From IMG/VR virus record IMGVR_UViG_3300025168_000175, positions 1 through 43,086 of that record: DNA of 43,086 nucleotides; one strand, 5' to 3'. The DNA is from a virus. Below are positions 2,492 through 42,749 of this stretch, piece by piece. Numbering within the stretch: position 1 is the stretch's first letter; each line of letters starts with the position of its first letter. The notes beneath the pieces are model-generated. The model did not search any database. It was given only the letters and a program-made list of their open reading frames with translations, and had not been told where the DNA came from. The position numbers and the translations under genes were made by a program.

Positions 2492-2507
2492 GGTATCACG
2501 TGACACC
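2492..2507. promoter_or_regulatory. Dispersed palindrome copy 1
   Basis: GGTATCACGTGACACC, one mismatched pair from the perfect palindrome. It lies in the 61-base gap between the fibre gene start (2465) and the end of the gp16-like gene (2527). A role as operator or stop site is inferred from repetition, not shown. Confidence 0.6.
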
Positions 2508-2526
2508 GGCTTAGTCACTACTTTCT

Positions 2527-5500
2527 TCACTCGAGATCTCTATCTTTCATATATGGAGAATTCTTATTTTTTTCTTTTACTGCCCCAGTCGACCACCCTA
2601 ACGACAAAGGCACTCCTCCGGTCTTTGCGTCTAGAGTTTTATCTACGCCTCGTAGCATATTATATATAGATTTTGATGGAACTCCGAGAAGGTTTTGTAC
2701 AGCTTCAAAAGTTTTTTCTAATACTTTAATTTCGTCGGTTACATCCCCAAAAGTGTAACCTGCCATCTCTTCGATAGCTTCAGTCACGTCGGCAAACATT
2801 TGCAAAGGATGCCTAATGTCTAGAGAGTACGGATCGCCATCTCCAATTATTTGTTGCGAAATATAGTCAAGTAGATCGCCAATTATGAATAGACCGTTTG
2901 CTGCTCCCCAAATCGAAGCTCGTATTTGTTTTTCTTCATCCCAACCGTAGTTACTAGCGAATTGAAGTAGATTCGGAATAACAAGGTGAAATATAACGAT
3001 AGCTTTAGCAACCTCTGCATTTGTTGTGCGGCCTCGCGCTCTCTCTACAATCGCTGAATATTCAGCCCGAGCCAGTGCATTAGCGGAAGATTTAAATAAA
3101 GCTAATACTCTACCGTACCCAGAACTGCGCTGTTGCTCTGAAACTTGATCAGGATCGTAGGATTGTTGTGTGCGAACTGCTATTTTTTCCATAGATCGCA
3201 AGGCTCGTTTTTTAGCTTCTTGAGGACTCACTCCGCTCTTTATTAACGCTCTACGTTTAGCCCAGAAATGAGCGTATCCTCCAAGCAAAATAGCACCTTT
3301 ATCTCCGATTCTTATATTTAACGTCAAAGCTGAAGTAAGTCTTGGATTACGCCCTAAAACATTTAAAACTCTATTACCGAAAGCATCAGCGGATAAATCA
3401 GCAAAATCTTGATCTCGGCGGTTTCCCCGTAGATTAAAGAACTGTGAGTCATTCATATCTTTCCACGCTTGTTTTGGATGCGAGATTAAATGGCCAATGC
3501 CCAAAGCAAAATCTAAAGAACTGATACCTTCAGCAAACGCAGGAAAGGATAATAGCTGCTTTATTGTAATTAGAGGCCGCACAGCAAGAGTGCCAACCGC
3601 AAAATTTCGCAGATTGGTAACTAAAAATTGTTCTACTATAGAGCCAGCCTGAACTCCTTTTCGACTAAAATACTCGATGTCTTTAGCAATCATTTGTCGA
3701 TAGTGCTCATTATACGTTCGCTCAATATTGCTCAGAGTGTTGCCATCAAAAACTGACATAAGAATTCTTACTTTGTCATGGTACGCAATATAATATTCCA
3801 TCTCTGCGATGTGGCTTGTAGCTACTGCATAGAAATTACGACGGCGTAAGGGTTTAACACTCTGTGTACGAGAAGTTAAAGCCCCAGATCCGGGAGCTCC
3901 TCTGTATAATATGGCTTTCAAAAACTCATCTGTTTGCGAATCCCCAAGTCTGCTGATGGGGATGTATAATTCTTCTTGCGGTAAATTTACTCCTTCAGCT
4001 TTCCTGTAGACTTTGTTAATTCTTGTGTAGTACTCGTTGTAAAATTTAGTTAACGCTGAAATCATCCTATATTCTTGGGTCGTAACTTCATTGCGTAAAG
4101 CGTCGATCATATCTTGCGAGAAGGCATCACCTTTTTTATTTCGAGCTTTTGATTCAATACTTGGTTGTTGCAACTCAGCCACCAGTTGGAGAAGTTCCCC
4201 TCGATTCATTATTAAAGGTTGAAGATTATTAGCAGTATCGGGGAATTTTCCAAGGTTTACTTGCGTTGTCGAAAGGTCTTGCATAAATTTTAGTAGATTT
4301 GTTGAGGAGATACCCGTGGCTTCTTGCATAAGCTCTTGAAGGCGATTAGATGTTGTGTAGCGCCCTAACTCAGCCGTCCGAGCTTCATCAAATAAACTAA
4401 TACTGTCGAGAAAAGCGTTAACTCTCACTCTATCACTAGACCGCAAAATACGTGCTATCTTATTCCACCACGCTCCAGACGCACCGAGCATAGCCACTTC
4501 CATCTTTAAAAGAGTTTTCTTTATTCTCCCGCCTTCGCGATTACCCCCTCGTTCTTCAATCATAACAGGATCGCCGTTTTCGTCTAGCACTGCATTACCG
4601 TCTTCGTCTAATTTCTCTGTCGTGTTAATTACTGGATCTAACAAATTACGAAACTCTATGCGTAAATCAGCTATTCTTTTGGCCTCAGCAAACGCATTGT
4701 TTTTATTTATCGTTTTACCTTCACTAATTACGTCTTGCAGATCAGTTAATAATTTCTCTAGCTCGACTATATCTGTAAGCTTTGGGTCTTGCACCGCAAC
4801 GCCTAGAGCCATTCTTTCTATCTTCTCTAAAGCCGAAGGAACTTGAGAAGGGTCAGCCTGCCGATTAGCAAGCTCGAGCTCTGCGTTTTCGGGGGCCATA
4901 TTTAATAAGCCGCTAAGGTTATCTATCGTACCAGAGATCTCAGGAGTTAATTTTCCCTTTGGTTTCCCAGTCATCTTAGTCTTGTGCTGCTTTAATAATT
5001 TTTCTATAGCCGCCTTGATCTGCTTGCGTCGAGCTTGATCCATAAGTTTTAATGCTCGTGCTTCTTCTTTCGCAGTAACTTTTTTTAACGCTTCTAGAGT
5101 AGGGGCATTAGAAACCCGATCCCCCATACGCTTGCGTTGCTCGGCTGTTACTGCTGTGCCTTTCAACGTCGCGTCAAGAGCTTTTCGTATTTCTTTCTTA
5201 GCTTCTGTTAGCACCTTGCCAGCACGTAAGGCCGCTCTAAAAGCTTGCTTCGCTGCTCTAACGCTTTCTTTGTTGATTGCTACGCCTAGTTTCTGTAGCG
5301 TCTGCGCTTTAGTAATAATCTTTTTCTTTGCACGAGCTTCAGCTTTTGTTTTAGGAGTAGTAGCTACTACTTCTTGAGTGGCGCTTAGATCTTCTATAGT
5401 CGCTTGTACAAAAGGAACCGCTGCTAATCGATCAACCGCTCCTTCTTGAGGTCGTAGCATCGTAGGTCTTCGCGGATCTTCTCCCCAACGTATAGCAAGA

Positions 5501-7956
5501 GCGGGGCCACCCTCACCGCTAACTAGTCTCACAGGAATAAGCCTAACTCCTTCTCGAGCGAATTGTCTTACTCGGTGTCTTCCCTCATGCGATACTATTT
5601 TTGCTGATCCGTCTTCTTGCATCAGCATACTCATATAAGGGATATCAGAAAATTGGCCACCTTCAGCGGAGATCTTAGCTACTCGTGCAGCTTTTGTCGG
5701 ATCAAATCCTTCTTCGGCTATAGATATAAATTCTTCCGGCGACATCAAAACGATAGTTTCTCTAGAAGCAGTCTCACGTAGAGTGCGAAGGGCAAATTTA
5801 ATAGCTTTGTCTTCGAATCGCCCTAATACTTTAGAAAGATCAGGAGTACGCCCTTCTCCCGGCACTATGTCTTGCTCGAACTCTTCGATTAGCCCTGCTT
5901 TCTGAGCACTAACATTTATCTCTAACTGTTCGTCAAGAAGCACATTTCGAATGTCGGAAAGTTTTTCTAGCTGCTTCTCAAGTTTCGTAGTGCTCTCTCC
6001 TTGAAGTTCTGCGTTTTCAATTTTAACTTCAACTTCGCTCATACGAGTTTCTTGCTGAGAGATCTCTTGATCAAGAAACGCTAACCGCCCTTCGACTTCG
6101 GCAACAGATGTATCGATCTTCTTCTGCGCTGAGATAGCGATCAACGAATCTATTACGTTTGTCACTTGTTGGCCAGCGTCTTCAAGTATATCTGCTGATT
6201 TACGAGGTTCTGCCGTAGCTTTACGAATAGTCTCTTCAACTTTAGTTCTTAAATCTTCTGCGATTGCTAGATCTGCTAATTCGTCAAGATACACAGTTTC
6301 AGATATTGGATCGGCAAACACTTCTGCTGTAGCTTCGGATACCGTCTGTGTGTCTTTAGAGATAGCAAGGTTGTTATTGAACGCTTCGGCACCTTCTTTC
6401 CCCGAGATCTGCGATACAAAAGTTTCTAGCGAGATCTCAGCCGTAGTACCGTCGACAGTCATTCCTAACTGTTCTAAAGCTTGTTGCGGGTTTTCAAAGC
6501 GCGATGCCCACGTTACGAGAGTCTCTACTGGAACAAAAACGCTTTCGATTCCTGCAGCTTGCATCTGCGCTACACGGACTTCAGTGCTTTTATCGGCTGC
6601 TAATTGTTCTAATTCTGATTGTCTTTGCAAATTGCTAAATTCTTGTACAGCTTTGTTTTGTCGGCGTGATTGGACTAAACTAGCAGGAAGGTTAACTGAT
6701 CCTCCGAGCCACCCAGCAGCCATCGCATTGACAATATTTCGAGTTACTTCGCGAGTGTCCATATCTTGACCTGTGGCCTGAGATACAGATAGTTCTTCAA
6801 CAAACGTCTGGACTCCTTCTGTAAAACTCTCGACAACCATTCCCGTACCAGTAGCTTTCGATGCTCTCTTGGCTACTTCTTTAAGAGCTAATTTTCGTAA
6901 CCCTGCTTCGACGGATTCTACTCCAAACTTTTTTGACAACATAGACATGACGGAGATGGGAAGAATACTATCGAGTGCCCCGACGATAGCTCCTCCACCG
7001 AACACAATACCGGGAGCTTCTATATCTTTGTCAATTTTTTTAATTGCTGATTGTATAAATCCTGCTCCTAATACAAGAGAAGAAAGAAACGCACCGGACA
7101 CAGAGCCTATAGTAGCGCCTATCGCAGTTCCGGCCCCCGGAGCAATAAATGTACCAATCGTGCCTCCGGTATACGCTCCAGTTTTTGCTCCAGCTAATAC
7201 TAAAGCCATATTTGGTATTAACATCCCGGAAGTCTGGCTTACCCAATTGCTTAAAGATTCCCAGCTATTAATGTCGCCTTCGAAAACATCTATCGTTTTA
7301 CCTTTATACTCTGAAGCCTGCCCTTGCTGTACTTCAGCTTTAAATTGCGCTTTAGCTTCGAGGCTCTCAAATCCAAAAGCTTCGGAAAATGCTTCAATAG
7401 TTCTAAAAAAAGCTTCTTGCGAAGTATCTACGGTGCGTCCGAAGCTATCTGAAAAAGTCATCTGTCTAGCAATTTTTTCAGAAGCAATAAGATTTGGCTT
7501 ACTATTTTGTCCTATAGTGATTAGATCCATATCTCTATCAAATAGACTTTCAGTAACAGGAGCGTTAGAATCTCGTTCTCTTACTTGTTGAAGTTTAAGT
7601 TTGTTCTTTAACTCATCACGAGTAGTGTCCGAGATTGCAGCATTAGGAACTCCAGCTTCTAAAGCAAGTTTTCGGTCTTCTGCAGCTTGAGTAGAAGTTT
7701 TTTGCTGCGCGATTAGTCCGTTGCGAGTACGACTAAGATCATTATTTTCGCCACTATCCTCACCAATATCAGATGCTTCAGAGAATATTGACGAAGCTCC
7801 TGCAGGTTCATCTATTGATGTTAGATTTGTGTCGTCCTCTTCTCCACCGAAAAGATTGAAGTCACTGTCGCCCCCGCTTACAAGTGGCTCGTTAAGGATA
7901 TCTGTGTCGTTACTGCTCGTCGGTACTGTTGCTCCGGTAAGCCCTAGTTCAGCCAT
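2527..7956 (-). CDS. Giant internal virion (DNA ejection) protein, gp16-like position, 1809 aa
   Basis: This is the largest gene and the third and last of a gp14/gp15/gp16-like set, so a role in the ejected core that carries DNA across the envelope is likely. Residues about 250-305 form a Gly/Ala-rich hydrophobic stretch that could insert in a membrane. The central third is Lys/Glu-rich and predicted coiled coil. Near residues 785-800 is a HEGRHRVRQF motif followed by a PVRL strand. This resembles the GRHR-type phosphate-binding motif of ParB/sulfiredoxin-like folds found in large phage polyvalent proteins. The C-terminal 500 residues are mixed helical with hydrophobic segments. No lytic transglycosylase motif like that of T7 gp16 is visible; a lysozyme domain lies in the preceding gene. 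It overlaps that gene by one base. Confidence 0.72.
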   Translation of the reverse strand: MAELGLTGATVPTSSNDTDILNEPLVSGGDSDFNLFGGEEDDTNLTSIDEPAGASSIFSEASDIGEDSGENNDLSRTRNGLIAQQKTSTQAAEDRKLALEAGVPNAAISDTTRDELKNKLKLQQVRERDSNAPVTESLFDRDMDLITIGQNSKPNLIASEKIARQMTFSDSFGRTVDTSQEAFFRTIEAFSEAFGFESLEAKAQFKAEVQQGQASEYKGKTIDVFEGDINSWESLSNWVSQTSGMLIPNMALVLAGAKTGAYTGGTIGTFIAPGAGTAIGATIGSVSGAFLSSLVLGAGFIQSAIKKIDKDIEAPGIVFGGGAIVGALDSILPISVMSMLSKKFGVESVEAGLRKLALKEVAKRASKATGTGMVVESFTEGVQTFVEELSVSQATGQDMDTREVTRNIVNAMAAGWLGGSVNLPASLVQSRRQNKAVQEFSNLQRQSELEQLAADKSTEVRVAQMQAAGIESVFVPVETLVTWASRFENPQQALEQLGMTVDGTTAEISLETFVSQISGKEGAEAFNNNLAISKDTQTVSEATAEVFADPISETVYLDELADLAIAEDLRTKVEETIRKATAEPRKSADILEDAGQQVTNVIDSLIAISAQKKIDTSVAEVEGRLAFLDQEISQQETRMSEVEVKIENAELQGESTTKLEKQLEKLSDIRNVLLDEQLEINVSAQKAGLIEEFEQDIVPGEGRTPDLSKVLGRFEDKAIKFALRTLRETASRETIVLMSPEEFISIAEEGFDPTKAARVAKISAEGGQFSDIPYMSMLMQEDGSAKIVSHEGRHRVRQFAREGVRLIPVRLVSGEGGPALAIRWGEDPRRPTMLRPQEGAVDRLAAVPFVQATIEDLSATQEVVATTPKTKAEARAKKKIITKAQTLQKLGVAINKESVRAAKQAFRAALRAGKVLTEAKKEIRKALDATLKGTAVTAEQRKRMGDRVSNAPTLEALKKVTAKEEARALKLMDQARRKQIKAAIEKLLKQHKTKMTGKPKGKLTPEISGTIDNLSGLLNMAPENAELELANRQADPSQVPSALEKIERMALGVAVQDPKLTDIVELEKLLTDLQDVISEGKTINKNNAFAEAKRIADLRIEFRNLLDPVINTTEKLDEDGNAVLDENGDPVMIEERGGNREGGRIKKTLLKMEVAMLGASGAWWNKIARILRSSDRVRVNAFLDSISLFDEARTAELGRYTTSNRLQELMQEATGISSTNLLKFMQDLSTTQVNLGKFPDTANNLQPLIMNRGELLQLVAELQQPSIESKARNKKGDAFSQDMIDALRNEVTTQEYRMISALTKFYNEYYTRINKVYRKAEGVNLPQEELYIPISRLGDSQTDEFLKAILYRGAPGSGALTSRTQSVKPLRRRNFYAVATSHIAEMEYYIAYHDKVRILMSVFDGNTLSNIERTYNEHYRQMIAKDIEYFSRKGVQAGSIVEQFLVTNLRNFAVGTLAVRPLITIKQLLSFPAFAEGISSLDFALGIGHLISHPKQAWKDMNDSQFFNLRGNRRDQDFADLSADAFGNRVLNVLGRNPRLTSALTLNIRIGDKGAILLGGYAHFWAKRRALIKSGVSPQEAKKRALRSMEKIAVRTQQSYDPDQVSEQQRSSGYGRVLALFKSSANALARAEYSAIVERARGRTTNAEVAKAIVIFHLVIPNLLQFASNYGWDEEKQIRASIWGAANGLFIIGDLLDYISQQIIGDGDPYSLDIRHPLQMFADVTEAIEEMAGYTFGDVTDEIKVLEKTFEAVQNLLGVPSKSIYNMLRGVDKTLDAKTGGVPLSLGWSTGAVKEKNKNSPYMKDRDLE

Positions 7957-10832
7957 TACTTAATTTTCCTCATTCGCTTAACTAGCGCCTTAGCTCTGCC
8001 CTTCGTCTGCAGATACCATGCGGTGTTTCCTTCGCTGTGGTTGTCTGGATCTGTCCATATCATCTCTTCAGCAGCTCGCTGGTAGTCCTTAGCTCTTAAA
8101 GCTTTTCTAAAGTTTGTAAATTGAGCCAGAGAACCTGCACCCATCATCGACATATTTGTTACAATTAAACGAACTTCGTCAGGAGCGGTCTTAGGAATAA
8201 ATCTCAATGCAATTTGAGAAGCGTTTTCGTAGTCATTTGCCCACCACATAGCTCGGACTTCAGCAGGAATTTCTGCACCTTCTGGATATTTTCTCCGCTC
8301 TGCAACTGTTAATCTATGGCCTATTCCCCCGGTTAAGAGGGTCTTGATTGAGCCGTCTGGTTGTTTAACTCTCTCTTGGTATGTTCGTGAAACGTCGCCG
8401 CCCTCGTCATTGATAATCTGTTTCTGTTCAGACGGAACTGCAGCTAAGAATTTAGACAGCCGCTTTTCGCCAGCGGGTCGTCCTTCAATCACGGCATTGT
8501 TTTCATTTCCACCAGCCGTCGGAGTTACTTCGGCTACTGCCGTCAGTGGATCTCCTTCTGGGTCGCTGTCTTCCATCCCTTGCCCTACTGCCGTCAGTGG
8601 ATCTCCTTCTGGATCGTTGTTTCCCATCTCTTGCCCTACTGCTGCAGCTTCTCCAACTACTATCGGCTCTGGTAACGGCGTTAGCGTTTTTTCTGCTACT
8701 GCCGTCAGTGGATCTCCTTCTGGGTCGCTGTCTTCCATCCCTTGCCCTACTTCTACTATTGGCTCGGGTTGTGCTGTAGGTACAATTGTTCTTCTTGCTT
8801 GTAAAGCTAGCCGCTTTTCGAGTTCATTCGCAATAGCAGCCTCTGTCGGTGGCTTTGCTTTCTGCGCGAAAAGTGTAATTATGTGTGCTACTTCGTTCTT
8901 ACCTGCGGTTGGATATTTCGAGATAACATCTTGAATCCTAGAAGATTTAAATAATTTTGAGATTAGTATGTTGTTTGTTTTATTAAACTCTATTTGCTCG
9001 GTGGTCGTTATATCTTTAGCCATACCCCCTTTAGCAGGTGCGGTTTCTAAAGCTTGAGCGCGAAGCAATGTTGAACCGGTAATCTGCCCGGGCGAACCCC
9101 CGCTAAGAATTAAATTTCCAAGTTGTTGCACTCTCTCGGGAAGCAACCCAGTTTCTTCGGCAAGAGCTACTACTTTATCCGATTCGATGTCGGCAGTAAA
9201 TTTAACCCCGCTTACGTCGTCTCCGCTAAATTCAAAAAGAGTTCCGCTCCGCTCGAATAAAAATAAGTCTTTACGCCACCACGGCTCTTCAAGATTTCCA
9301 GTTATCATTAGACCTTCAGCAATCTCTATATATTGGCTATCTTTTGTAAAGATAACACCACTGTCTGTTAATCTTTCGACTTCCTGTTGCACAAGACTTT
9401 CGAGTTCTCCTCGAGCTCCTTTGCTGAGATCGAAGCTGTCAACCTTTGATTTAATCGCCGTTCGGACTGCCGTGCCTTGAGCTGCTTTTCGTTGAATTTT
9501 TTCGTTTTTTAAATCTTCTGCGATATCGGCGTTAGTTATCTTGGCGATAGCGAATTGAAAGATTTGATAGTCCGCTGAAGATAACCCTAGTACGTACTTG
9601 GGAGAATCTAAATCTAGATCTTGAGCTAGGTGTGATTTTTTTATAATGATGTTCCATAGTTCTGCTTTTATATCTCTATTGCTAATTTGTGGCCTTCCAA
9701 CGGCCTTTCGTTCGCTGATTTTCTGCAAACTAAGTAACATCCCCGGAGTCTCTGATACGGCCACTAGCTCGGCTACGGTCAACGTATTAACTTCACCCCG
9801 TTGTGCTTTGCCAACCGCCGAGGTTCGAAGACTTTTCTTTTCACTAGTTTCTATTCCTCTAAGGTCACTTACGTGCGACCGAACTAAAGACATAGTAGCA
9901 ATTCTAACTTGTGGATTTTGGCCTGCAGGATAGTTAGTAGGATCTGCAGCCGCTTTTATCATTTGCTCGTGCGAACGGCCCGGAACTCTAGTAATATTGT
10001 CGAACGCTGTTAAAGTGTCGGCTTTAACGCCTCCGGTTTCGACAAGCTCAGAAAGTTCTAGTTTTAACGGGCCTGATAGTAAGCCTTCTGTGCGGTCATA
10101 TAAATCTTTAGCTGCCCGTAATTCATCAGTGCTTTGCAAGAATTTAATGCGGCTTCCGATAGCTGCAGATTGGTAACTTTTAATGTACTCATCGATATTA
10201 TTTTTATCTGTTAACCCGTCTTGACGAGCCATGTCAAGAGCAACAACCCCGATCTCATCGATAAGTCTATCTTCACCTTCTATATCCCCCGCTACAATAT
10301 TATCGAGATCTCTACTAGTCTGTCTTAACGTAGTTTTGTTAGTTGTTAATCGCGCTGCTTTTCTCTGCGTTATATTATGTAGATCTTGTCCAACCTCGTT
10401 CTCTAGAAGATAGCTCTCGGCATCTACGCTCAATTCATCTTTTACCCATTGAGCACTTTTTAAGTCGGCAAGCTGTTGCGTAACAACTTTTCTTAACTCA
10501 GCTTTCGACTGTGCAGCGGTATCGAGGCTATTCTGCCCAATTCGGCTCTTCCATCCTTCAATTCCTCGCTCTTTATTACCGTCAGTATGGTCTGATATTG
10601 TTCTTTTAAGTACGTTTGTTTGATTCTTCTTATCTAATTTCTCGTCGCTAAATTGAATACTTGCCCCAATTTTAGTCCAATCATCGGCTGACGCACTAAG
10701 CTTTTCACCAAACTGTGTTTGCGCTTTTGCTACTGCACCCGCACCTCTATACTCGGTAACTCCGGGCAGAACAGTTCTTTGAGGCGCGATTGCGTCTGCT
10801 GTAACTCTTTTTGCTGTGGGAACAGTAGCCAT
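7956..10832 (-). CDS. Internal virion protein with C-terminal lysozyme-like domain (gp15-like position)
   Basis: Residues 1 to about 650 are long, helical and charged, as in T7 gp15-type ejection proteins. Residues about 690-780 form a low-complexity linker with three copies of a 17-residue unit containing DPEGDPLTAV. From about 790 to the end is a GH24-like lysozyme domain: DEGG, then a Tyr-Gln-Glu, LTGGIGHR, a helix NMSMMGAGSL and a terminal W..Q..GRA pattern typical of phage muramidases. It would cut peptidoglycan locally during DNA entry. In T7 the wall-cutting domain is at the N-terminus of gp16, so this arrangement differs. The catalytic acid pair is not certain because the loop between DEGG and GGIGH is longer than in T4 lysozyme. 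Confidence 0.75.
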   Translation of the reverse strand: MATVPTAKRVTADAIAPQRTVLPGVTEYRGAGAVAKAQTQFGEKLSASADDWTKIGASIQFSDEKLDKKNQTNVLKRTISDHTDGNKERGIEGWKSRIGQNSLDTAAQSKAELRKVVTQQLADLKSAQWVKDELSVDAESYLLENEVGQDLHNITQRKAARLTTNKTTLRQTSRDLDNIVAGDIEGEDRLIDEIGVVALDMARQDGLTDKNNIDEYIKSYQSAAIGSRIKFLQSTDELRAAKDLYDRTEGLLSGPLKLELSELVETGGVKADTLTAFDNITRVPGRSHEQMIKAAADPTNYPAGQNPQVRIATMSLVRSHVSDLRGIETSEKKSLRTSAVGKAQRGEVNTLTVAELVAVSETPGMLLSLQKISERKAVGRPQISNRDIKAELWNIIIKKSHLAQDLDLDSPKYVLGLSSADYQIFQFAIAKITNADIAEDLKNEKIQRKAAQGTAVRTAIKSKVDSFDLSKGARGELESLVQQEVERLTDSGVIFTKDSQYIEIAEGLMITGNLEEPWWRKDLFLFERSGTLFEFSGDDVSGVKFTADIESDKVVALAEETGLLPERVQQLGNLILSGGSPGQITGSTLLRAQALETAPAKGGMAKDITTTEQIEFNKTNNILISKLFKSSRIQDVISKYPTAGKNEVAHIITLFAQKAKPPTEAAIANELEKRLALQARRTIVPTAQPEPIVEVGQGMEDSDPEGDPLTAVAEKTLTPLPEPIVVGEAAAVGQEMGNNDPEGDPLTAVGQGMEDSDPEGDPLTAVAEVTPTAGGNENNAVIEGRPAGEKRLSKFLAAVPSEQKQIINDEGGDVSRTYQERVKQPDGSIKTLLTGGIGHRLTVAERRKYPEGAEIPAEVRAMWWANDYENASQIALRFIPKTAPDEVRLIVTNMSMMGAGSLAQFTNFRKALRAKDYQRAAEEMIWTDPDNHSEGNTAWYLQTKGRAKALVKRMRKIK
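8534..8746 (-). repeat. 51-bp coding repeats in ejection protein linker
   Basis: Three 51-base units start at 8534, 8585 and 8696. The first and third appear identical base for base; the second differs at several bases. Each encodes 17 residues of an acidic, proline-containing linker before the lysozyme domain. The first two are tandem and the third is separated by 60 bases, suggesting recent duplication. Copy number could vary between relatives. Confidence 0.85.
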
Positions 10833-10834
10833 TT

Positions 10835-11380
10835 TTAAACAGTCCTAAATTTAAAGTCGCCTGCGTCATCGAAGGTAAACTTTGACGAAAGACTAGAAAC
10901 GCCCGATAACGCTGTACTAGCCATCTGAATGTTTGCAGCAGAGCGAGCTTCTTCAGCTTCAAATCGAGTTGCTCCAATATTTCCTTCGATAGTATTCGCT
11001 TCGATTGCAAGATTACGTTTTCGCATATCGCTACGTTGAGCAGACAAAAGCATCTTAAATCTCGTTTCATCCCTACTATCTTGAAAGATGTCGAATGCTG
11101 TGTCTCCGGGTTCTAACAGTACGCCGTTGCTCGCGAGGGCAACCTTTATCCCTCCCCCTTCTTGAGCACCTTCTCTTGCAATTAGTTGCCGACGAAGATC
11201 TTCTGCTTGTGATTCTTGTACAATGTCTTCTTCTACAGCTACTTTTTGCTGTGCTAACTGCTCGGCACGACGATTGGCCAATTGAGCAGCAACATTACCT
11301 TGCCTCTTTGCCCCTGCCATGGCTATCCCAGTGCCTAGCACTGCTGCACCTGCCGCAATAAATGGGAGTGCTTGGGCCAT
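10835..11380 (-). CDS. Internal virion protein, gp14-like
   Basis: This is a 181-residue protein with a hydrophobic N-terminus (about residues 5-24, Ala/Gly-rich, membrane-like). A long charged helix with a coiled-coil look follows, and then the GVLLEPGDTAFDIFQDS segment seen in many podovirus gp14-like core proteins. In T7, gp14 is the first ejected protein and forms a pore in the outer membrane. Size, hydrophobic start and position directly before a gp15-like gene on the same strand support the call. It ends two bases before the next gene. Confidence 0.72.
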   Translation of the reverse strand: MAQALPFIAAGAAVLGTGIAMAGAKRQGNVAAQLANRRAEQLAQQKVAVEEDIVQESQAEDLRRQLIAREGAQEGGGIKVALASNGVLLEPGDTAFDIFQDSRDETRFKMLLSAQRSDMRKRNLAIEANTIEGNIGATRFEAEEARSAANIQMASTALSGVSSLSSKFTFDDAGDFKFRTV

Positions 11381-11382
11381 CT

Positions 11383-11847
11383 TTAATTCCTTCTCATCTC
11401 GTAACGGTGATATAGATGCCCGGTTTTTCCTACAGGCTCAGGCGAAAACGCTGAAAATCCTAACCATTTCATCCACCGCACGGAAGTTTTATTCGACGCA
11501 TCCCCGTAATTTAAAAACATATCGTAATCTTTCAACATCTCTTGTAAAAAAGCTCGAACATAGCGGATAAATATACGGCCATGTTTAGGAAGTTCTGGAG
11601 TAGCCAACAGCCATGGGCACCCTACATTACTCAACGGACTCTTTCTCACGCACCCGAATATAAATACTAATTTTCCATCTGCCGTTACAGAAGTGGTGTC
11701 ACGTGATCCTGCTTTCAAAACCTTTAGTGCTTGAGCGGGTGTAGCTCCTGCATAGTCCATTAATTCAAATACGTCTTCGGCTCGCATAACTTCAGTCATT
11801 TCAGCAACATGCTCAGGCGTTGTTGGAATGAATTGATAGTCGATCAT
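11383..11847 (-). CDS. T7 gp13-like internal protein with GNAT-like fold
   Basis: This 154-aa protein resembles the small T7 gp13 / DUF2833 family found between nozzle and core protein genes. The pattern LVFIFGCVRKSP, GCPWLLATPELPKHG and NYGDASNKTSVRWMKWLGF matches the acetyltransferase-like (GNAT) fold of this family, including the NxxSxRWLKWLGF end typical of N-acetyltransferases. In T7 gp13 is needed for particle morphogenesis; enzyme activity is not established. Its ATG overlaps the nozzle gene stop by four bases. A copy of the dispersed palindrome lies inside the gene and encodes SRDT. Confidence 0.75.
   Translation of the reverse strand: MIDYQFIPTTPEHVAEMTEVMRAEDVFELMDYAGATPAQALKVLKAGSRDTTSVTADGKLVFIFGCVRKSPLSNVGCPWLLATPELPKHGRIFIRYVRAFLQEMLKDYDMFLNYGDASNKTSVRWMKWLGFSAFSPEPVGKTGHLYHRYEMRRN
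11695..11710. promoter_or_regulatory. Dispersed palindrome copy 2
   Basis: GGTGTCACGTGATCCT. The core TCACGTGA and left arm are intact; the right arm is altered in its last three bases. It lies inside the gp13-like gene, about 140 bases from its start. Confidence 0.5.
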
Positions 11848-14800
11848 CCATCCGATCCTACATCGATATCCGGTATAATTGCAAGCACTGTCAAGGGTAA
11901 AGGATAGGGTTGCCTTAAAAACAATCTACCATTCGAGTTCCAATCTGGCTTCAGTGTAATGCGTTTATCACCAGTTAGAAGAGCTGTCGGAGCTCCCATA
12001 ACTTCGTTCTGCCGTTGTTTCATCTCAACGAGTCTTGAAGTATCAGGCCCAATTAGTAACCCTCTCGAGTTTTCTAGACGCACCGTAACGTGAGCCATTT
12101 TAGATGGGCGACCTTGTATAGTTCCGTTCGGGCTTTCAACATTCAATGTCTCTATATCGGATACTACTGGAATACCTATATGAACACGGCTGGCTTTACG
12201 ATCTAGAGTAACAGCACCCCCTGATATAGATTTACCTGTAACTACATTACCGTCAGCTAATATAATAACGTCTTCACCCTCAAGATGATTAAGACCTGAA
12301 ACGGTAGTAATAGCTTTACGAACATTCCCACCGCGAACATAAGCGGCAAAAGCTGAACCATCGGTAGCATGATATACACTCCCACTATTCGTATACGCTG
12401 TGAAGCCAGAAGTATTAACATTTGCATCTGCAGCAGTTTTTAACGCAAAGGTGTTTGCCGAGACACTAGCAACTTTATATATGTTGTCATTTGCCTCAAC
12501 CATTCCAGCAATACCGTGCATCGCAATCATATCACCATTCGATAGGCCATGGGCTGTAGCCGTTACGACGCCCGGATTGGCTGCTGTGATACCCGTAATC
12601 GCTATTCCATTTTCATTGCTAAATAGAGTCAGATTTGTAGACGTTGAATCTGCTACGTAGAATCTGCCACCATTTAATTGAGATACTTCTATTTCATTTT
12701 CATCACTATCATACGTAGAAACCCAGTCGATTCCTTCAATATCGATTTCATCTCCATCGGAGAACCCGTGAGCTGCAGTAGTTAGAACGACAGGATCTGC
12801 TGAAGTAGCCGCACTAATTGCAAACGGAACATCTAAAGATAATCCGCTGTCAACGAAGAAAGCGTCTTGTACATCAGTAAATCTTCGACTAGCAATGCGT
12901 TCAATAAATAGTACTGTATTACCGTTAACAACTCGTTGAACAACAAAATACGCTGCATCATTTACTTCAGCAGAAGATGGCCGCATAGCTCCAGCCCATT
13001 TAAATAACCCGTTACGAGTCTCCCATCGGCACCAAGCTAAAACTTCTTGTTCTTCGTTAAAAGTCATCACTCCAACCATGCCGTCCGACCGAACGATGTG
13101 AGCAACAGGTTCGGGGGATAATGCAAACCCCCAAGAAACAATAGTAGATTCTTCGAATATATGAGGAGCAAGTAGAGTAAGATCTGTGCCTGTGTATCCG
13201 TCGATGTTTAACTGATAGCCAATACTTCTAACAGCAATATTGTTTTCTTGGCAAAATATAACTGTTTTACCTACTTCTGCAGGTTTTAGATGATTAGATC
13301 CCCACGTTGTTTGCGGTTCTTGCTTCAATGTAGTAGCTGCAAACCCAGAATTATCTCCTGAGTGTATACGCCATTCTGCTCCATCTGTCAGAATAAGTAG
13401 ATCAGTGCCGGGAACATAGTGGCGTATCTGATTAACTTTTCGAGAGTTTAAAGTAGCACGAATTGCGTCGTCGGGTTGAGACGGACTAGATTTTGTAAAG
13501 TTACTTTGGTTTCCTGTTTGAGAATAGTCTGAAGTATCTGGCTTGTTGGTAGACCCGCCCATAACTCGACGTTGTTGAAAATATCCTGCAGCCGAAGGAA
13601 ACTCACCCGCTACTCGAAACGGATTACGAGCGGTAGGTGGAGTTGTAGTAAGATCAGTCTGTAAAAGCCCAGACGTGTTGTCTGAATACGTTAACTCTTG
13701 TGTCTCAGCTAAAAATCCATAAGCACCGCTGCCCCCTTTAGCTCGATACACCGTATATTTAACAGCGTCAGCAACTGCAGCCCACGTAATAGTACTATCA
13801 GGTATCGTTGTGCCTGTAGGAGCCGCAGACGTGCCTGTGCCTGCGAAAGTAGCAAAACAAGTATTTGACCCCCCAGTTGTTTCTGCAGCGTATCCTGAGC
13901 CATCCTCACCGTCTAGAGAGAATGTGCTAGAGTTAATAACTGTAATTATAAAACGACGATTATTAACTTCTGTCATTTGAGTAAAACCTGTAAGTTCTAC
14001 TTCATCTCCTGTCGACAAAACGTGACCCGTTATCGTTACAACAACAGGATTAGCTGCGGTAGCGGAAGCGACTGTTAATCCAGTACCGTTAATAGCAGCA
14101 AGGCTTTCTTCAAACGTCTCTTCTTTAATCGCCGTAACTTTATACTTCCAAAACACATCATTGTCTGCACCATTAGCCGCGACTGCTAACCCGGTAGGAT
14201 CTGCTATGTTAGGTGCGAATGTAGGGGCTGCAAGCGACCACGCATTATGGTCTGTTCGGGATAATTCGAAAGGTGGGTATTGATCATGCGTAATTGTTAT
14301 CGTATCGGCTGATTGAGCCCATTTTAATTGAGGTAAATTAGCTTGAGCGTAAGTTGTAGTAATCTCATACACTTTACCTGCCGAACCTGCAGATCCATAA
14401 GTTGTATACGCAGAACTATTGATATTGGATGAGCCCCCGTCATACACACTTTTTAACGCGAAAGTATGCGTAGTAACACTAGCAACTTGAAACCATCGAC
14501 CGTTGAGCTGGGTCATGCCAACTACACCGCTAATATATACGTGATCTCCGTTGCTGTATCCATGAGAGGTTGCAGTAACTACGCAAGGATTGGCTTTTGT
14601 GGCTCCTGAAATTGTCTTGGCAGTTTCTAATACTTGTGCGTCATTACGAATAAATCGCATATAGAGATTGCCAACTTCGATCAGATACGTATCTGTAGCT
14701 TTAAAAGCAAACTCAATAAATATTGGGCATTTTGTATGATCTTTGCAAGGAGCGAGAAATTTTAATCCTGTTCGATTACTAATACCGCCATGTGTATGTA

Positions 14801-20466: not shown

Positions 20467-20467
20467 A

Positions 20468-30920: not shown

Positions 30921-30947
30921 CGTATATGATTTGCTTGCATCAGTCAA
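30921..30947 (-). promoter_or_regulatory. Candidate promoter for primase-helicase
   Basis: On the minus strand TTGACT (30947-30942) is followed by TATACG (30926-30921) with a 15-base spacer, shorter than ideal. It lies 43 bases before the primase start in the divergent 119-base gap. Confidence 0.35.
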
Positions 30948-30997
30948 CCGACTTATGGTACACATTACTAGGATACTACAAATTTAGGAAAAATGAT

Positions 30998-31336
30998 ATG
31001 AATGCGAGAATGACGACAGGCATAATTGTTTACGTCACTGCTATACTAGCTGGGCTATATCTTGTCGGGTACGCTAACGCTCAAGAATCAGTCAAGAGCG
31101 TCTGTGCTCCTAGAAACGTTATAATATCTAAGCTAGAAATTAAACATGGCGAGCAACCACAACACCGAGGGTTCTCCGCTTCCGGTAACGTACTCGAGAT
31201 CACCGTCAGTCAAGGTAAAGACAAAGCGTGGACGGCAATGCTGACTAATCCAAAAGGTATTACGTGTCTGGTATCTTCGGGTCTATATTGGGAAACAGTG
31301 GAGCCTAAGGATACCGCCACATTTGACACTCATTGA
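30998..31336 (+). CDS. Exported small protein, 112 aa
   Basis: The ATG at 30998 is preferred; an upstream in-frame start at 30818 lies inside the primase gene. AGGAAAA lies before it. The first 28 residues form a signal peptide (hydrophobic IIVYVTAILAGLYLVGYANA, cleavage after ANA likely). The mature part is basic with two Cys, consistent with a periplasmic protein. Function unknown. The last codons overlap a candidate promoter at 31323. Confidence 0.6.
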   Translation: MNARMTTGIIVYVTAILAGLYLVGYANAQESVKSVCAPRNVIISKLEIKHGEQPQHRGFSASGNVLEITVSQGKDKAWTAMLTNPKGITCLVSSGLYWETVEPKDTATFDTH

Positions 31337-31351
31337 AATATGTGGTAAGCT
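31323..31351 (+). promoter_or_regulatory. Promoter for third early transcript
   Basis: TTGACA (31323-31328), 17-base spacer, TAAGCT (31346-31351). The -35 is a perfect match, and the -10-like box and spacing equal those at 27026. It starts 45 to 70 bases upstream of the 31396 gene. Confidence 0.55.
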
Positions 31352-31395
31352 GTATATGTTAAATTAAATCTTAATCTATAGGGAATATGAAAATT

Positions 31396-39597: not shown

Positions 39598-39933
39598 ATG
39601 AGAGAGTTCGAGACTGGAGCGACCCGAGATCAAGACGACACCAAGCATGATTTCGAAGGGTATCTAAGCCCTCTAGTGCTAGGAAGGTATGCTGAGTACA
39701 TGACTAGAAATAGACATCAAGACGATGGCACAGTTAGAGACGGAGATAATTGGAAGAAAGGGATTCCGATGGATTCGTATATGAAATCAGGATGGCGGCA
39801 TTTCTTCGAATGGTGGAGTGCTTATCGTGACGGTGATGTGTGTTTGAACAACGTACTAGAAGATGCTTTGTGTGGCTTGATGTTCAACGTCATGGGTTTC
39901 TTGCATGAGCACCTAAAGAAACGAGGATACTAG
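39598..39933 (+). CDS. dATP/dGTP diphosphohydrolase N-terminal-like protein, 111 aa
   Basis: The ATG at 39598 follows AAGGAAGAG; an in-frame ATG at 39544 is inside the previous gene. It has the block REFETGATRDQDDTKHDFEGYLSP in parts, NWKKGIPMDSYMKSGWRHFFEWW and MFNVMGFLHEHL. This is the phage family recorded as dATP/dGTP diphosphohydrolase N-terminal domain. The full enzyme domain is absent, so activity is uncertain. It is the last gene of the early arm, with one base before the convergent endolysin gene stop. Confidence 0.75.
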   Translation: MREFETGATRDQDDTKHDFEGYLSPLVLGRYAEYMTRNRHQDDGTVRDGDNWKKGIPMDSYMKSGWRHFFEWWSAYRDGDVCLNNVLEDALCGLMFNVMGFLHEHLKKRGY

Positions 39934-39934
39934 T

Positions 39935-40384
39935 CTAAGCTAGGAACAATTCTCGTTCAGATCTACGGCGTATCACTAGACCTTTAACGACCCTGCCCCC
40001 AGCTTTACGCCACTTCGGAAACTCATCGGCAGCATCTTCGAACTGGCCACGGTTTAGTTTCATACGCATCGTAGATTTCTGAAAATTTCCTGACCCGATA
40101 TTGTAGATAAATGAGCACAGGCTTGAAAACATATTCTCCGTTAGTTCCGATTTGACAAGTCTTCTAATTGCTTTCTCAGAATGACGCACTTCTCTGAGAA
40201 GCAAATACTCGCCCTGCTTCTGCGTAATATCAGGATGCTCAAGGGTAACAGCATCGCCATCAGCATCCCATGTAGACCCGTAGCCAATTGTAGCTCGGCT
40301 TGCGCTGCATAGATACACTGAGGATCGCCATCCTTCATAGTGCTTGATGAGATCCAAACCGGCTTCATTGATGTGCAAGACCAT
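39935..40384 (-). CDS. Endolysin, GH24 lysozyme-like (R21 type), 149 aa
   Basis: The ATG at 40384 is preferred because AGGTATCTGAG precedes it and the domain begins right after. Glu17 (HYEGWR), Cys26 (VYLCSA) and Thr32 (ATIGYGS) occupy the positions of T4 lysozyme Glu11, Asp20 and Thr26. Cys at the second position is usual in the P1/R21-type lysozymes. The rest (LTENMFSSLCSFIYNIGSG, WRKAGGRVVKGLVIRRRSE) is a full domain. No signal sequence is visible, so release needs a holin. It lies after a holin-like gene. Confidence 0.9.
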   Translation of the reverse strand: MVLHINEAGLDLIKHYEGWRSSVYLCSASRATIGYGSTWDADGDAVTLEHPDITQKQGEYLLLREVRHSEKAIRRLVKSELTENMFSSLCSFIYNIGSGNFQKSTMRMKLNRGQFEDAADEFPKWRKAGGRVVKGLVIRRRSERELFLA

Positions 40385-40401
40385 CTCAGATACCTCGCTT
40401 T

Positions 40402-40839
40402 TTATTTTCTCTGAAAGCTTCTTGCCCCAAACCAAAATGACACGGTTGCGGCCCATACAGCCTGAAATTCGCTGTTCCATATAGTTGCGTATTGAATCAA
40501 GTCCATCCAACCCATATTTACAGATAGAGTGAGGACTGCAAATTCTAAAAATAAACAATAAGTTATTACTGGCCTAACTGAAGCACTAAGATTAACACAC
40601 CATTGACTAGACTTTTTAGTTATTGCAGAGTGCTCTTTATGTAGAGCTTTAGTTTCTTCGATGTCCGCTGTGATGTCCATCATCTGCATCTTCTGAGCAC
40701 CAATTTGTATCTGCTGCTCAAGCTGCTTGTCCATCAATAACAATTCATGTTTCTTATCCTGCTTATCTTGGAAGAAATCCATGACCTTTGGCAAAAAAGA
40801 AGTACCAAATCCTAAGACTGACCCTAGCAAACTTAACAT
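40402..40839 (-). CDS. 3-TM holin-like protein (gene transfer agent holin type)
   Basis: 145 residues: a hydrophobic start, a long charged coiled coil (about residues 22-75, rich in Lys, Glu and Gln), then two membrane segments (about 90-108 and 126-140) with SASVRPVITYCLFLEF and FQAVWAATVSFWFGARSF. This is the pattern of the GTA_holin_3TM-type family. It would open the inner membrane so that the downstream lysozyme reaches the wall. It ends 17 bases before the endolysin start. Confidence 0.75.
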   Translation of the reverse strand: MLSLLGSVLGFGTSFLPKVMDFFQDKQDKKHELLLMDKQLEQQIQIGAQKMQMMDITADIEETKALHKEHSAITKKSSQWCVNLSASVRPVITYCLFLEFAVLTLSVNMGWMDLIQYATIWNSEFQAVWAATVSFWFGARSFQRK

Positions 40840-40850
40840 AGCGAATCCTT

Positions 40851-41009
40851 TTATGCTTTCTTTGTAGTGTTTAGTTTCTTGGTTTTTTTCTTAGGAAATC
40901 CAGCTTTCATATTAGAATAAGCTTTAGAACTTACTGTGCTTTTAGATTTAGAACGTGAAGTTCCTGCTTTCTTCCGAGCATTCATATTGGCGTACAATCC
41001 TCTCGGCAT
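40851..41009 (-). CDS. Basic micro-protein MPRGLYANM type, 52 aa
   Basis: 52 residues, very basic, starting MPRGLYANMNARKKAGTSRS. Similar tiny Lys/Ser-rich proteins recur in the late regions of marine phages, but no role is established. AAGGAT precedes the ATG. It lies directly before the holin gene. Confidence 0.55.
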   Translation of the reverse strand: MPRGLYANMNARKKAGTSRSKSKSTVSSKAYSNMKAGFPKKKTKKLNTTKKA

Positions 41010-41012
41010 TCA

Positions 41013-41162
41013 CTAGTATCCTTTTAAAAAACTGCTATCTATTTCGCGTTCTTGATTTATTAAATCTTGGTGCGAATGGAAATAAAACGGATTAGGAAAG
41101 TCAGGTATTGCTTTGCAGCCTGATAGACTAATCAAAGTTAAAATAACAAAAACTTTAATCAT
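41013..41162 (-). CDS. Small lipoprotein, 49 aa
   Basis: Signal sequence followed by lipobox LSGC (Cys16), then 33 residues ending in FLKGY. Its place in the lysis cassette suggests an outer-membrane spanin-like subunit, but it lacks the usual proline-rich tail and no clear inner-membrane partner is seen. The stop lies four bases before the next ATG. Confidence 0.55.
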   Translation of the reverse strand: MIKVFVILTLISLSGCKAIPDFPNPFYFHSHQDLINQEREIDSSFLKGY

Positions 41163-41170
41163 CTAACTTT

Positions 41171-41293
41171 TTAATAGCCAGACTTTTTCTTCATCTTCCC
41201 CGTCTTCGCAGACGCTTTACTAGCTGCTGCTTTACCTTTTGCAGTGTAGGGAAATTTCTTAACTTTACCGGACGCTGTTTTAACTTTTGGCAT
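41171..41293 (-). CDS. Basic micro-protein KKFPYTAKGKAAA type, 40 aa
   Basis: 40 residues with the motif VKKFPYTAKGKAAASKA, a frequent signature of tiny basic late proteins in podoviruses and siphoviruses. Clear ribosome site AAGGAG. Composition (about one third Lys) suggests DNA or capsid contact. Role unknown. Confidence 0.58.
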   Translation of the reverse strand: MPKVKTASGKVKKFPYTAKGKAAASKASAKTGKMKKKSGY

Positions 41294-41351
41294 ATCATCT
41301 CCTTGATTTTTATGCATTGTCATTGTTGTAATTGATCGCATAGCCAATACT

Positions 41352-41468
41352 TTACTCTTCGAAGTCTTGAACTATTTCTTTGTCTGGAGTGCATTCGCAA
41401 GTCTCAGGGTCACACAAGCACCCTTCCTTACCACATTTCGAGCATATATCTTTGTCTGTGTCTAGCAT
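41352..41468 (-). CDS. Cysteine-rich micro-protein, 38 aa
   Basis: 38 residues with six Cys (C9, C12, C17, C19, C24, C26 approx.) in an acidic background. The spacing CxxC....CxC....CxC suggests metal binding. GGAG precedes the ATG. Function unknown. Confidence 0.5.
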   Translation of the reverse strand: MLDTDKDICSKCGKEGCLCDPETCECTPDKEIVQDFEE

Positions 41469-41470
41469 TA

Positions 41471-41806
41471 TTATACATCTCCATTAATTTTGTGATCTAA
41501 CATTCTGTCATCACCTACTACTCGCCTTAGTTCATGGTTAGATATCTTGGACGAAGGAATATACTGCCAAGTTCTACCCCATTTACCATTGCGTTCAAAG
41601 ATTGTTTCTCTAAGCCCAATATGTATGATTGTAACCTTATCTCCATCTAAAATGCAAGTCTCCATTGGCTCAAATCCCGGAGTTGCTTTCCATTTTATTG
41701 CCGCAATTAAATCTGCTGCCCAATCTCGAATGGCCAAACCGATAGTCACCGTGAGTATAAACCCTACCCACGCCATCCATCCTTGCGGTAATTCAATCTC
41801 TGGCAT
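41471..41806 (-). CDS. Membrane-anchored protein, 111 aa, unknown
   Basis: One N-terminal membrane segment (about residues 10-28, MAWVGFILTVTIGLAIRDW), then a beta-rich domain with GDKVTIIHIGLRETIF and GRTWQYIPSSKI. The pattern resembles an OB-like domain found in a recurrent phage late protein. Its place next to an XhlA-like protein suggests a role in lysis or the envelope; this is inference. Confidence 0.58.
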   Translation of the reverse strand: MPEIELPQGWMAWVGFILTVTIGLAIRDWAADLIAAIKWKATPGFEPMETCILDGDKVTIIHIGLRETIFERNGKWGRTWQYIPSSKISNHELRRVVGDDRMLDHKINGDV

Positions 41807-41809
41807 ACT

Positions 41810-42001
41810 TTACCCACCTTTAACAACGAGTCCAATCAACAATAGAATAATAGCACCAGTACTAGACATCAATATAACTTCGAGCCTCTTTAATCTAGCG
41901 TTTACGCCAGAGAATTGCAGCTCAATATTCTTGCTGCGTTCTCCACAGATATGTTCATGGGCTTCCAGACTAGCGCCGAGCTCTGTAACCGTTTTAGTCA
42001 T
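41810..42001 (-). CDS. XhlA-like holin accessory protein, 63 aa
   Basis: A coiled-coil N-terminal part (LGASLEAHEHICGERSKNIE, NARLKRLEVILM) is followed by a C-terminal membrane segment (GAIILLLIGLVVKGG). This is the layout of the haemolysin XhlA family, small cell-lysis membrane proteins that act with a holin. It overlaps the next upstream gene by eight bases. Confidence 0.72.
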   Translation of the reverse strand: MTKTVTELGASLEAHEHICGERSKNIELQFSGVNARLKRLEVILMSSTGAIILLLIGLVVKGG

Positions 42002-42209
42002 TAGTCTGCTCCAAACTTTCTATTACAAATCCTGTGACTGGGCTATGTTTTGCTTCGGCTTTCTTTTGAGCCATTTCTTTAGAAGACGCATACACTGTAA
42101 AGTAATAGACGTTTTCCCATTCTGGGGATAAGAAAGGCGGCGTTCCATCACCCTGACGTATAGCATCCCTAACATATTTATTATACACTCCGTATTCGTA
42201 TGTGTTCAT
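41994..42209 (-). CDS. Small protein, 71 aa, unknown
   Basis: The function is not recognised. Residues 1-35 are Tyr/Asn-rich with GDGTPPFLSPEWENVYYF, and the rest is a helix with KEMAQKKAEAKH. It lies between the 179-aa membrane protein and the XhlA-like gene, overlapping the latter. No motif is visible. Confidence 0.55.
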   Translation of the reverse strand: MNTYEYGVYNKYVRDAIRQGDGTPPFLSPEWENVYYFTVYASSKEMAQKKAEAKHSPVTGFVIESLEQTND

Positions 42210-42749
42210 CTAGCAGACTTTTTCAGTGCATCTATTTAAAAAGATAAGCCAGCCAACAAAAACACAAACAACAGAAACTAGTATTAAGATTCCAATGTTT
42301 TTTAATATTGAGATCACGTGATCCCAATACTTATCATCTTCTTCTTGTTTTATTTTAGCTTTCTCTTTGTTCTTTGCAGTCTGTACTTTTTTAGCTTCTA
42401 TACGTTTAACACGTTCAGCTTTAATAGCATCAAACGTACCCTTACCAAACTTGTTATCTATCTCAATGCCTAAGTTACTTAATGCTCTTTCATTTCTCTT
42501 CTGTTCTAATATGTCATTGGCTACACTACTAATACTTGTATCATCGTCGTAGTCTGCATCGCCAGCTTTCATGCGTAGTAGTTGTTGTGTCCTAGTCTTA
42601 GGTAGTTTCTTCTTTACCTTCTTAGGCTTGTTCTCTGTAGCGTGGAATAATTTATCTAACCCACCAGCTATATCTTTTAAATCGTTAGCATGGCTTAATC
42701 CCGCTTTCACTAATGCAATAGCAGCGAGTGTAGTTGTGACGGGTTCCAC
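42210..42749 (-). CDS. Late membrane protein, 179 aa, unknown
   Basis: A GTG start at 42749 is chosen because it overlaps the previous gene's stop. The start (EPVTTTLAAIALVKAGLSHA) is like small virion-linked proteins of marine podoviruses, followed by a basic central helix (KKVKKKLPKTRTQ) and a long Lys-rich coiled coil. One C-terminal membrane segment is at about residues 152-174. Topology suggests a tail-to-membrane or lysis protein. A palindrome copy lies inside, read as WDHVIS. Confidence 0.58.
   Translation of the reverse strand: MEPVTTTLAAIALVKAGLSHANDLKDIAGGLDKLFHATENKPKKVKKKLPKTRTQQLLRMKAGDADYDDDTSISSVANDILEQKRNERALSNLGIEIDNKFGKGTFDAIKAERVKRIEAKKVQTAKNKEKAKIKQEEDDKYWDHVISILKNIGILILVSVVCVFVGWLIFLNRCTEKVC
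42310..42325. promoter_or_regulatory. Dispersed palindrome copy 8
   Basis: GAGATCACGTGATCCC. The core TCACGTGA is intact, with divergent arms. It lies inside the coding part of the 179-aa late gene. Confidence 0.45.

Follow-up and report, generated by a model that had tools for sequence, protein, structure and literature searches.

The stretch of DNA considered here (the window) is the whole of the virus record IMGVR_UViG_3300025168_000175 in IMG/VR, 43,086 bases long, which the PHROGs matches of its proteins identify as a podovirus. The matched proteins are the portal (head-tail adaptor), the major head protein, tail proteins, internal virion proteins and terminase, together with an exonuclease, a gp2.5-like protein and a polymerase; Pfam adds a Prim-Pol/AAA helicase to this annotation. 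The window carries eight dispersed copies of a 16-bp palindrome, first described in a reading of the letters alone (the sequence-only reading). The copies have no strand and lie as follows.

2492-2507, no strand: site 1, GGTATCACGTGACACC, between the start of a tail-fibre gene and the end of a 1809-aa gene.
11695-11710, no strand: site 2, GGTGTCACGTGATCCT, within the gene for a 154-aa internal virion protein.
18266-18281, no strand: site 3, GGTATCACGTGACACC, at the 3′ end of a 103-aa gene, directly ahead of the protease/scaffold gene.
22627-22642, no strand: site 4, GGTATCACGTGAAGCC, in the first codons of the terminase large subunit.
26684-26699, no strand: site 5, GGTATCACGTGTTCTC, with three mismatches, intergenic in the early region.
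32243-32258, no strand: site 6, GGTATCACGTGATACC, a perfect palindrome that starts 23 bp past the stop of the gene for a 277-aa protein (p277).
38990-39005, no strand: site 7, GGTGTCACGTGATCCC, at the start of a RuvC-like gene, directly after the DNA polymerase gene.
42310-42325, no strand: site 8, GAGATCACGTGATCCC, inside the open reading frame 42210-42779, which has no family match.

Our search recovered the eight copies at the starts given by the sequence-only reading and bore out the details that came with them. The core TCACGTGA, said to be kept in seven of the eight, is found seven times in the 43,086 bases against 0.38 expected, a number reached by none of 100 dinucleotide shuffles. The hexamer CACGTG occurs 11 times, in the eight sites and at three places without the arms (near 21582, 25812 and 35710). 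The described spread of 3 to 9 kb corresponds to measured gaps of 3.3-9.2 kb, which are more regular than random (coefficient of variation 0.33, p 0.006, eight sites), and only the copy at 32243 is a perfect palindrome. At up to three mismatches the full pattern GGTRTCACGTGAYACC has nine matches in the window against 0.24 expected, and again 0 of 100 shuffles reached that number. The ninth, at 33561-33576, reads ACATGA where the pattern has ACGTGA; it falls inside a conserved helicase stretch (WDHxILDE), which makes a coding coincidence probable. When it is counted, the coefficient of variation becomes 0.44 and p 0.019.

Where close relatives align, they do not lack the sites at these places; a lack would have spoken against the sites. 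Alignment of 11 of the 16 relatives of the window placed a window site inside aligned DNA nine times (three in L005, two each in L006 and L007, one each in L008 and L014), and all nine are matched by a site within one base. Seven of the nine are firm: those in L005 and L006, and the site at 18266 in L007 and L008, where the block has 317 columns at 65.6% identity. The matches in L014 and in L007 at 11695 are less certain: there the block is short, the site lies at its margin or close to it, and the site itself may be what anchors the alignment. Site 3 is kept in L005, L006, L007 and L008, and also in the short block of L014; site 2 has its counterpart in L005 and, at the alignment edge, in L007. 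In the remaining six relatives, window sites never fell inside an aligned block.

The sites are not peculiar to the window and its closest relatives. A scan of viral contigs for GGTRTCACGTGAYACC gave 86 stretches. Among 39 whole records, which hold such stretches or are relatives by portal, counts of TCACGTGA rise to 29, 24, 14, 13 and 12 in records of 44-49 kb, and a reversed control motif is absent from 37 and present once in two; 12 of the 39 hold a single TCACGTGA, which may be chance. The motif profile and most of the site-rich records were collected through the 16-mer pattern, so that a record found by pattern necessarily holds one consensus copy or more. Enrichment is general: in a set of 22 records (G024 and G029 lie outside it), each scored with its own consensus, all 22 hold 4-30 sites against shuffle means of 0-0.25. 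The site-rich records are homologous to the window, with major head proteins 62-87% identical (detected in 14 of 17), and range in GC content from 43% to 65%. The symmetrised profile of 157 sites reads GGTATCACGTGATACC, with T/A favoured just outside and little base preference further out. At up to three mismatches the 16-mer is absent from five isolates (BPP-1, DC33, Carin1, Jess A and MZH0603). MZH0603 does contain TCACGTGA three times, every one without the arms, and in an open palindrome search of some isolates short in-frame repeats scored high and no long palindrome did. The sites are a real, family-wide dispersed palindromic system.

Selection on these sites is seen at the level of DNA. 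Within open frames of at least 150 aa, 65 sites lie inside genes in 13 records, against 3.4 summed over synonymous-codon shuffles. Because genes were called as simple open-frame picks (one call, antisense over p277 in G003, is wrong), the number of intragenic sites and their distances to starts should be read as approximations. Sites within three mismatches recur at homologous codons: in the exonuclease in 12 of 17 records, in the 154-aa virion gene (site 2) in 12 of 15, and at the terminase start (site 4) in 9 of 15. These counts, and those made below near gene stops, omit G350, G352, G354 and G356 of the 22 records as near-duplicates or fragments; G018 and G020, similar to each other, were both retained. 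The window itself does not have the exonuclease site.

35033-36193, plus strand: exonuclease, with a site near codon 240 in 12 of 17 records and none there in the window.

The reading frame most used across the site encodes VSRDT (with GGTATC). In G347, where the palindrome is GGTCTCACGTGAGACC, the same places in four genes read VSRET (with GGTCTC), and in the virion gene of G357, of the TGACGTCA lineage, the site reads VGRHT. The site peptide is absent from three outgroup exonucleases (BPP-1, Jess A and MZH0603). Because the encoded peptide tracks the type of DNA site, the DNA signal appears to impose itself on the sequence of phage proteins. Spacing is the other genome-wide feature. Sites occur on both arms at mean intervals of about 1.6-6.7 kb, more evenly than random (p<0.05) in 9 of 22 records, most strongly in G003, G349, G004, G348 and G002.

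The perfect copy sits in a 13-pair terminator-like hairpin at 32236-32265, followed by CCTTTTTTT. This is the first-listed terminator-like match of the region 23300-43086, and it raises the question of whether the sites act in RNA, as hairpins, terminators or processing signals. We regard this as highly improbable. Terminator-like matches in that region are near the shuffle level (18 vs. 15.4, standard deviation 3.3), the low base preference past the bases adjoining the 16-mer means that there is no T run, and many of the sites are intragenic. Moreover, symmetric half-site variants show no excess in 12 of 13 records (G002 is the exception), which is to say that a change in one half is not compensated in the other.

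What, then, reads the sites? The strong candidate, judged from gene content and position, is the protein encoded just ahead of the perfect copy, which has no known relatives.

31387-32220, plus strand: p277, a 277-aa protein and the proposed site binder, with a predicted helical core that includes a helix-turn-helix (helices 81-88 and 93-104) and a basic C-terminal tail.

With profiles for 17 gene families of the window, 14 long site-bearing records (nine found through the site, five through p277) were compared with the five isolates. Only p277 and the Prim-Pol helicase occur in all 14 and in none of the five; a 127-aa family occurs in 12 of the 14 and in no isolate. Among records picked by the site, p277 is present in 11 of 14, and the three without it (G006, G014 and G036) are fragments of 12-24 kb. 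It is present in all 13 further records, most of which were recruited through p277 itself. Searched in six frames, nine of the first 18 records gave p277, the other nine being fragments of 12-26 kb. The gene also adjoins the sites: one lies within -20 to +120 bp of the p277 stop in 13 of 20 genes against 1.14 expected (a count that also omits one short p277 fragment in G353), and 4 of 10 p277 genes have sites within 120 bp on both sides. The next-best family in this respect is again the Prim-Pol helicase (6 of 16).

28881-30890, minus strand: Prim-Pol/AAA helicase, a Pfam match, with a presence pattern equal to that of p277.

The helicase, as closely tied to the sites in phylogeny as p277 is, might thus read them as loading or priming points for replication. 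Its presence in 14/14 and 0/5, the sites near its stop and the spacing on both arms would all suit such a role. The lack of compensating half-site change in 12 of 13 records means, however, that a single-strand hairpin is not conserved, and we consider a replicative role improbable.

On the other side of the perfect copy are two further genes.

32290-32544, plus strand: small XRE-type helix-turn-helix protein, 84 aa, matching PF01381 (HTH_3) at 29 bits, not conserved with the sites.
32671-32943, plus strand: second small XRE-type helix-turn-helix protein, 90 aa, also matching PF01381.

The sequence-only reading had singled out the first of these for a binding test. Its ATG lies 32 bp past the perfect copy and its HTH_3 match is of a suitable kind, yet just 3 of the 18 records with sites, a set that includes fragments, match PF01381 at E<=1, in a scan that detected 14 of 14 controls. 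Besides the two window proteins, G004 has a match that falls below the cut-off and G002 a weak, short one. No relatives of the first XRE protein were found in viral contigs. There is very little chance that it is the binder; among its neighbours, p277 is the conserved candidate.

The AlphaFold 2 model of the p277 core, built from 20 sequences, has five helices at a mean predicted local distance difference test score (pLDDT) of 91, with the helix-turn-helix at core residues 53-60 and 65-76. In ten p277 proteins lysine and arginine make up 17-25% of residues, against 12-19% for acidic residues. Searches for relatives were negative within their scope. The window protein has no PHROG match at 0.01, and a Pfam scan of ten members gave a best value of 0.0053, with six families each in one member only. 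No convincing match was found in PDB sequences, in PDB folds (whole protein and core) or in viral predicted folds, from which a new fold does not follow. The best Foldseek match of the core in the PDB has E 2.3. The best VIA match (Z 6.0, root-mean-square deviation 4.1, 76 residues aligned) is an unrelated helical protein. EthR2, of the TetR type, aligns with the core at Z 5.5 and root-mean-square deviation 3.6 over 100 residues, by its chain residues 60-201, which we take to lie outside its DNA-binding domain. By tblastn, p277 was not found in INPHARED isolates (two queries) or PLSDB plasmids (one query), and a second profile scan gave no p277 record beyond those of the first protein search.

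Contigs recruited by a protein search with p277, rather than by the site, were searched openly for enriched palindromes. Palindromes of their own were among the top results: GGTCTCACGTGAGACC, 24 times in G347; GGTGTGACGTCACACC, seven times in G357; and GGGATCACGTGATCCC in the group of G350 to G355. Looser sites, of the GGTATTACGTAATACC type, number 12 in each of G018 and G020 at up to three mismatches. The sites thus change in concert between lineages that keep p277. As they are palindromic and without compensating half-sites in 12 of 13 records, we infer that a p277 dimer would read them in duplex DNA.

Two p277 genes are present in five records (G350, G005, G347, G357 and G002), and in two of these, G005 and G350, there are two classes of site, mostly in separate blocks, one round each p277 gene. 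Class A in G350 comprises eleven sites with GGGAT arms and cores such as AACGTG, CACGTT and TACGTG. They occupy 1131-7831 round the p277 gene at 2804-3679, and four class B sites (CACGTG core) occupy 10046-15809 round the gene at 10234-11007; a degenerate match at 11569 is ascribed to helicase codons. In G005, class A lies at both ends of the record (302-2060 and 40324-44228), beside the p277 gene at 43274-44146, and class B fills the middle, round the gene at 6870-7613, with exceptions at 714 (class B) and 8880 (helicase codons).

Some further repeats were seen in these records. An additional palindrome, CCAGCGCTGG, is repeated near other sites (G350:1433-2057, G351:1887-2511, and G030 at 10709 and 11556); GCCAGCGCTGGC repeats in G350 and G351, and GGTCCAGCGCTGGACC in G030. 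In G002, copies of GCTATCACGTGATAGC at 17782, 19393 and 19619, beside the Prim-Pol helicase gene, are perhaps a class of their own. G353 (70.7 kb) has sites only at 55567-70687 and p277 likewise in its final 15 kb, and the majority of virion gene families went undetected there; the record may be chimeric or hold a boundary between phage and other DNA.

The change of core between lineages bears on partitioning, one of the roles entertained by the sequence-only reading. If a ParB of host or phage loaded at the sites, it could segregate or condense the phage DNA, and the palindrome shares 12 of 16 bases with TGTTTCACGTGAAACA, including the CACGTG core described as important for binding by P. aeruginosa ParB in the accessible text of PMC4368675. 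Such mimicry or hijacking of parS is very improbable. ParB-type partitioning is unlikely because no ParB_N domain (PF02195) was found over the cut-off in 39 records, many of them fragments (there is one weak match, in the one-copy record G017; 11 of 14 controls were detected), and because the CACGTG core changes between lineages, being replaced where cores are of the TGACGTCA or GGTATTACGTAATACC type. In addition, bacterial genomes picked because they hold the 16-mer, mostly alphaproteobacterial, have ordinary parS (11 of 12 checked) and one or two phage-type sites (21 checked), with the reservation that they may not be the hosts of these phages.

The exact 16-mer occurs in the GTDB collection in 60 single-copy stretches (L142-L201), which is about chance level by a 4^16 estimate. 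By title the single copies are over-represented in Thalassospira and other alphaproteobacteria, often in intergenic DNA. In 297 genomes of one order, a sample that includes genomes already known to match, there are 21 GTATCACGTGATAC sites in 19 genomes against 1 for the control. Ten scanned proteins that flank bacterial sites include no common regulator, and p277 has no match in the 297 genomes (an empty answer from a search run with no positive control). With a pre-matched sample, no common flanking regulator and no p277 match, the bacterial copies are not linked to the phage system; possibly they are an unrelated host operator. L189, a contig of a Robiginitomaculum metagenome-assembled genome (MAG), encodes relatives of structural proteins of this phage group, and L178, binned with an alphaproteobacterial MAG, encodes a relative of the Prim-Pol helicase. 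They are a hint at the hosts.

The explanation that we favour, and give about an even chance, is that the eight copies are sites for a phage-encoded DNA-binding protein, most likely p277, acting as a sequence-directed nucleoid protein and also as a regulator. Observations on the sequences support several of its steps: the sites are real and under selection as DNA, lie on both arms, in and between genes and at homologous positions, and change in concert between lineages; p277 accompanies and adjoins them, and the site-less relatives tested do not have it. The protein would bind as a homodimer, one half-site per subunit, making contact through the helix-turn-helix, and its lysine-rich tails might touch DNA without sequence preference. 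Once it occupied 8-30 fairly evenly spaced sites, the phage genome could be split up inside the infected cell into loops or nucleoprotein units, much as MatP-matS or ParB-parS work, and through the flanking sites the protein may control its own gene.

Alternatively, p277 or another phage repressor could block initiation and elongation of transcription over the genome from dispersed operators or stoperators, with organisation not being the point. The p277 gene is flanked by sites on one or both sides, several sites lie 20-40 bp ahead of called start codons, class A of G350 is dense round the first p277 gene (11 in 6.7 kb), and repressors of the L5 type bind more than 20 dispersed sites, as the accessible text of PMC9283540 has it. 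On the other hand, stoperators are described there as asymmetric and of one orientation, and symmetric sites give no direction; many of our sites lie deep in genes at fixed codons; and a classical lysogeny repressor is not indicated, because an integrase is present in only 1 of 18 records. We find this reading rather unlikely, though a serious contender. The likeness that the sequence-only reading saw to dispersed operators, with a palindromic site, fits; its proposed binder is not conserved with the sites.

Several points weigh against our favoured explanation. Binding of the sites by p277 is a prediction, and the protein gave no convincing match to any DNA-binding family or fold already known. 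A role in genome architecture is something we infer, from spacing and position. The evenness of spacing does not reach significance in 13 of 22 records, of which several are short fragments, and the p values must not be multiplied, since the records share ancestry and are not independent. Many sites are at gene borders, which fits transcription control equally well, and the Prim-Pol helicase equals p277 in presence and has sites near its stop. The open search gave no strong palindrome in G024, G030 and G349, of which G030 has five sites and G349 nine within three mismatches. Three of the five records with two p277 genes have no two clear territories: G347 and G357 have one palindrome type each, and G002 has 20 sites of the main type and three GCTATCACGTGATAGC variants. 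Conversely, G352 and G353 carry both site classes with one full p277 gene each; their second gene may lie outside, as both contigs end within a class A block (that of G352 ends 151 bases past its last class A site). Organisation of the genome is favoured by even spacing and intragenic sites, and transcription control by border positions and the sites flanking p277; both may be true.

If organisation is part of the answer, these phages may represent a new class of genome-organising system, a notion that we hold tentatively and put somewhat short of an even chance. Here a protein family with no known relatives would read strict palindromes set at fairly regular steps through the whole genome of uncultured podoviruses, the protein and all its 8-30 sites would switch specificity together, and duplicate proteins could thereby create separate territories of DNA within a single phage genome. 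Binding sites across the whole genome appear to be maintained as a code by this group of environmental phages. Part of the code lies within protein genes, and the selection on it is strong enough that proteins are altered. Up to 24 sites that change with one protein family are a natural experiment on the evolution of DNA-binding specificity where many sites have to shift jointly. The work also names a candidate for a phage DNA-organising protein without known relative, and a signal that shifts between lineages with one viral protein, probably its binder, suggests a mechanism not described before by which viral DNA is organised or controlled by the virus itself.

BPP-1 and related podoviruses, like the window, have late genes on one strand and the exonuclease, gp2.5-like protein and polymerase on the other. 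Unlike the window they have 0 16-mers within three mismatches, no p277 and, at E 1e-3, no homologue of the Prim-Pol helicase. The window portal is at most 42% identical to isolate portals, e.g., that of Bordetella phage BPP-1, and no phage record is among the megablast matches to window positions 20000-43000. A pyrimidine dimer DNA glycosylase (PF03013, 27.1 bits) is encoded at 27618-28163 in the early region. The statement of the sequence-only reading that no described phage system has this site agrees with the open literature, in a coverage that leaves subscription journals and preprints mostly outside: two 16-mers are absent from 5.39 million open papers, parts of 12 and 14 bases appear in one, on melanoma MITF, and searches on dispersed operators, phage nucleoid proteins and palindromes of marine podoviruses brought up no description of this system.

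Known systems share parts of the pattern. MatP-matS, Noc-NBS and SlmA, all of bacterial chromosomes, have sequence-specific sites over a large region of DNA, and the proteins that bind there organise DNA or division; a relation of p277 to MatP, Noc or SlmA could not be shown, because p277 gave no convincing sequence or fold match to solved structures. ParB-parS has a 16-bp palindrome with a CACGTG core (PMC4368675, accessible text), as here. Here, in contrast, the arms differ, the core varies in sister lineages, the sites are genome-wide and no ParB gene was found with them. For repressors of the XRE or CI type, an XRE helix-turn-helix protein would accompany the sites, which is not what the records hold. 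The L5-type immunity repressors of mycobacteriophages and their stoperators also combine many short sites over a phage genome with a phage-encoded helix-turn-helix protein. Their site, according to the accessible text of PMC9283540, is an asymmetric, orientation-dependent 13-mer with predicted monomer binding. The present sites are instead 16-bp palindromes whose halves vary independently in 12 of 13 records, many stand at fixed codons, and the protein has no family match. Lambda NinH resembles the proposed p277 as a phage-encoded homodimer with sequence preference and nucleoid-protein-like character; it is a Fis homologue, and the accessible part of its description contains no strict-palindrome array (PMC7166090). 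In sum, while departing from stoperators and ParABS in the features compared, the system seems to work like dispersed phage operators or sequence-directed nucleoid proteins.

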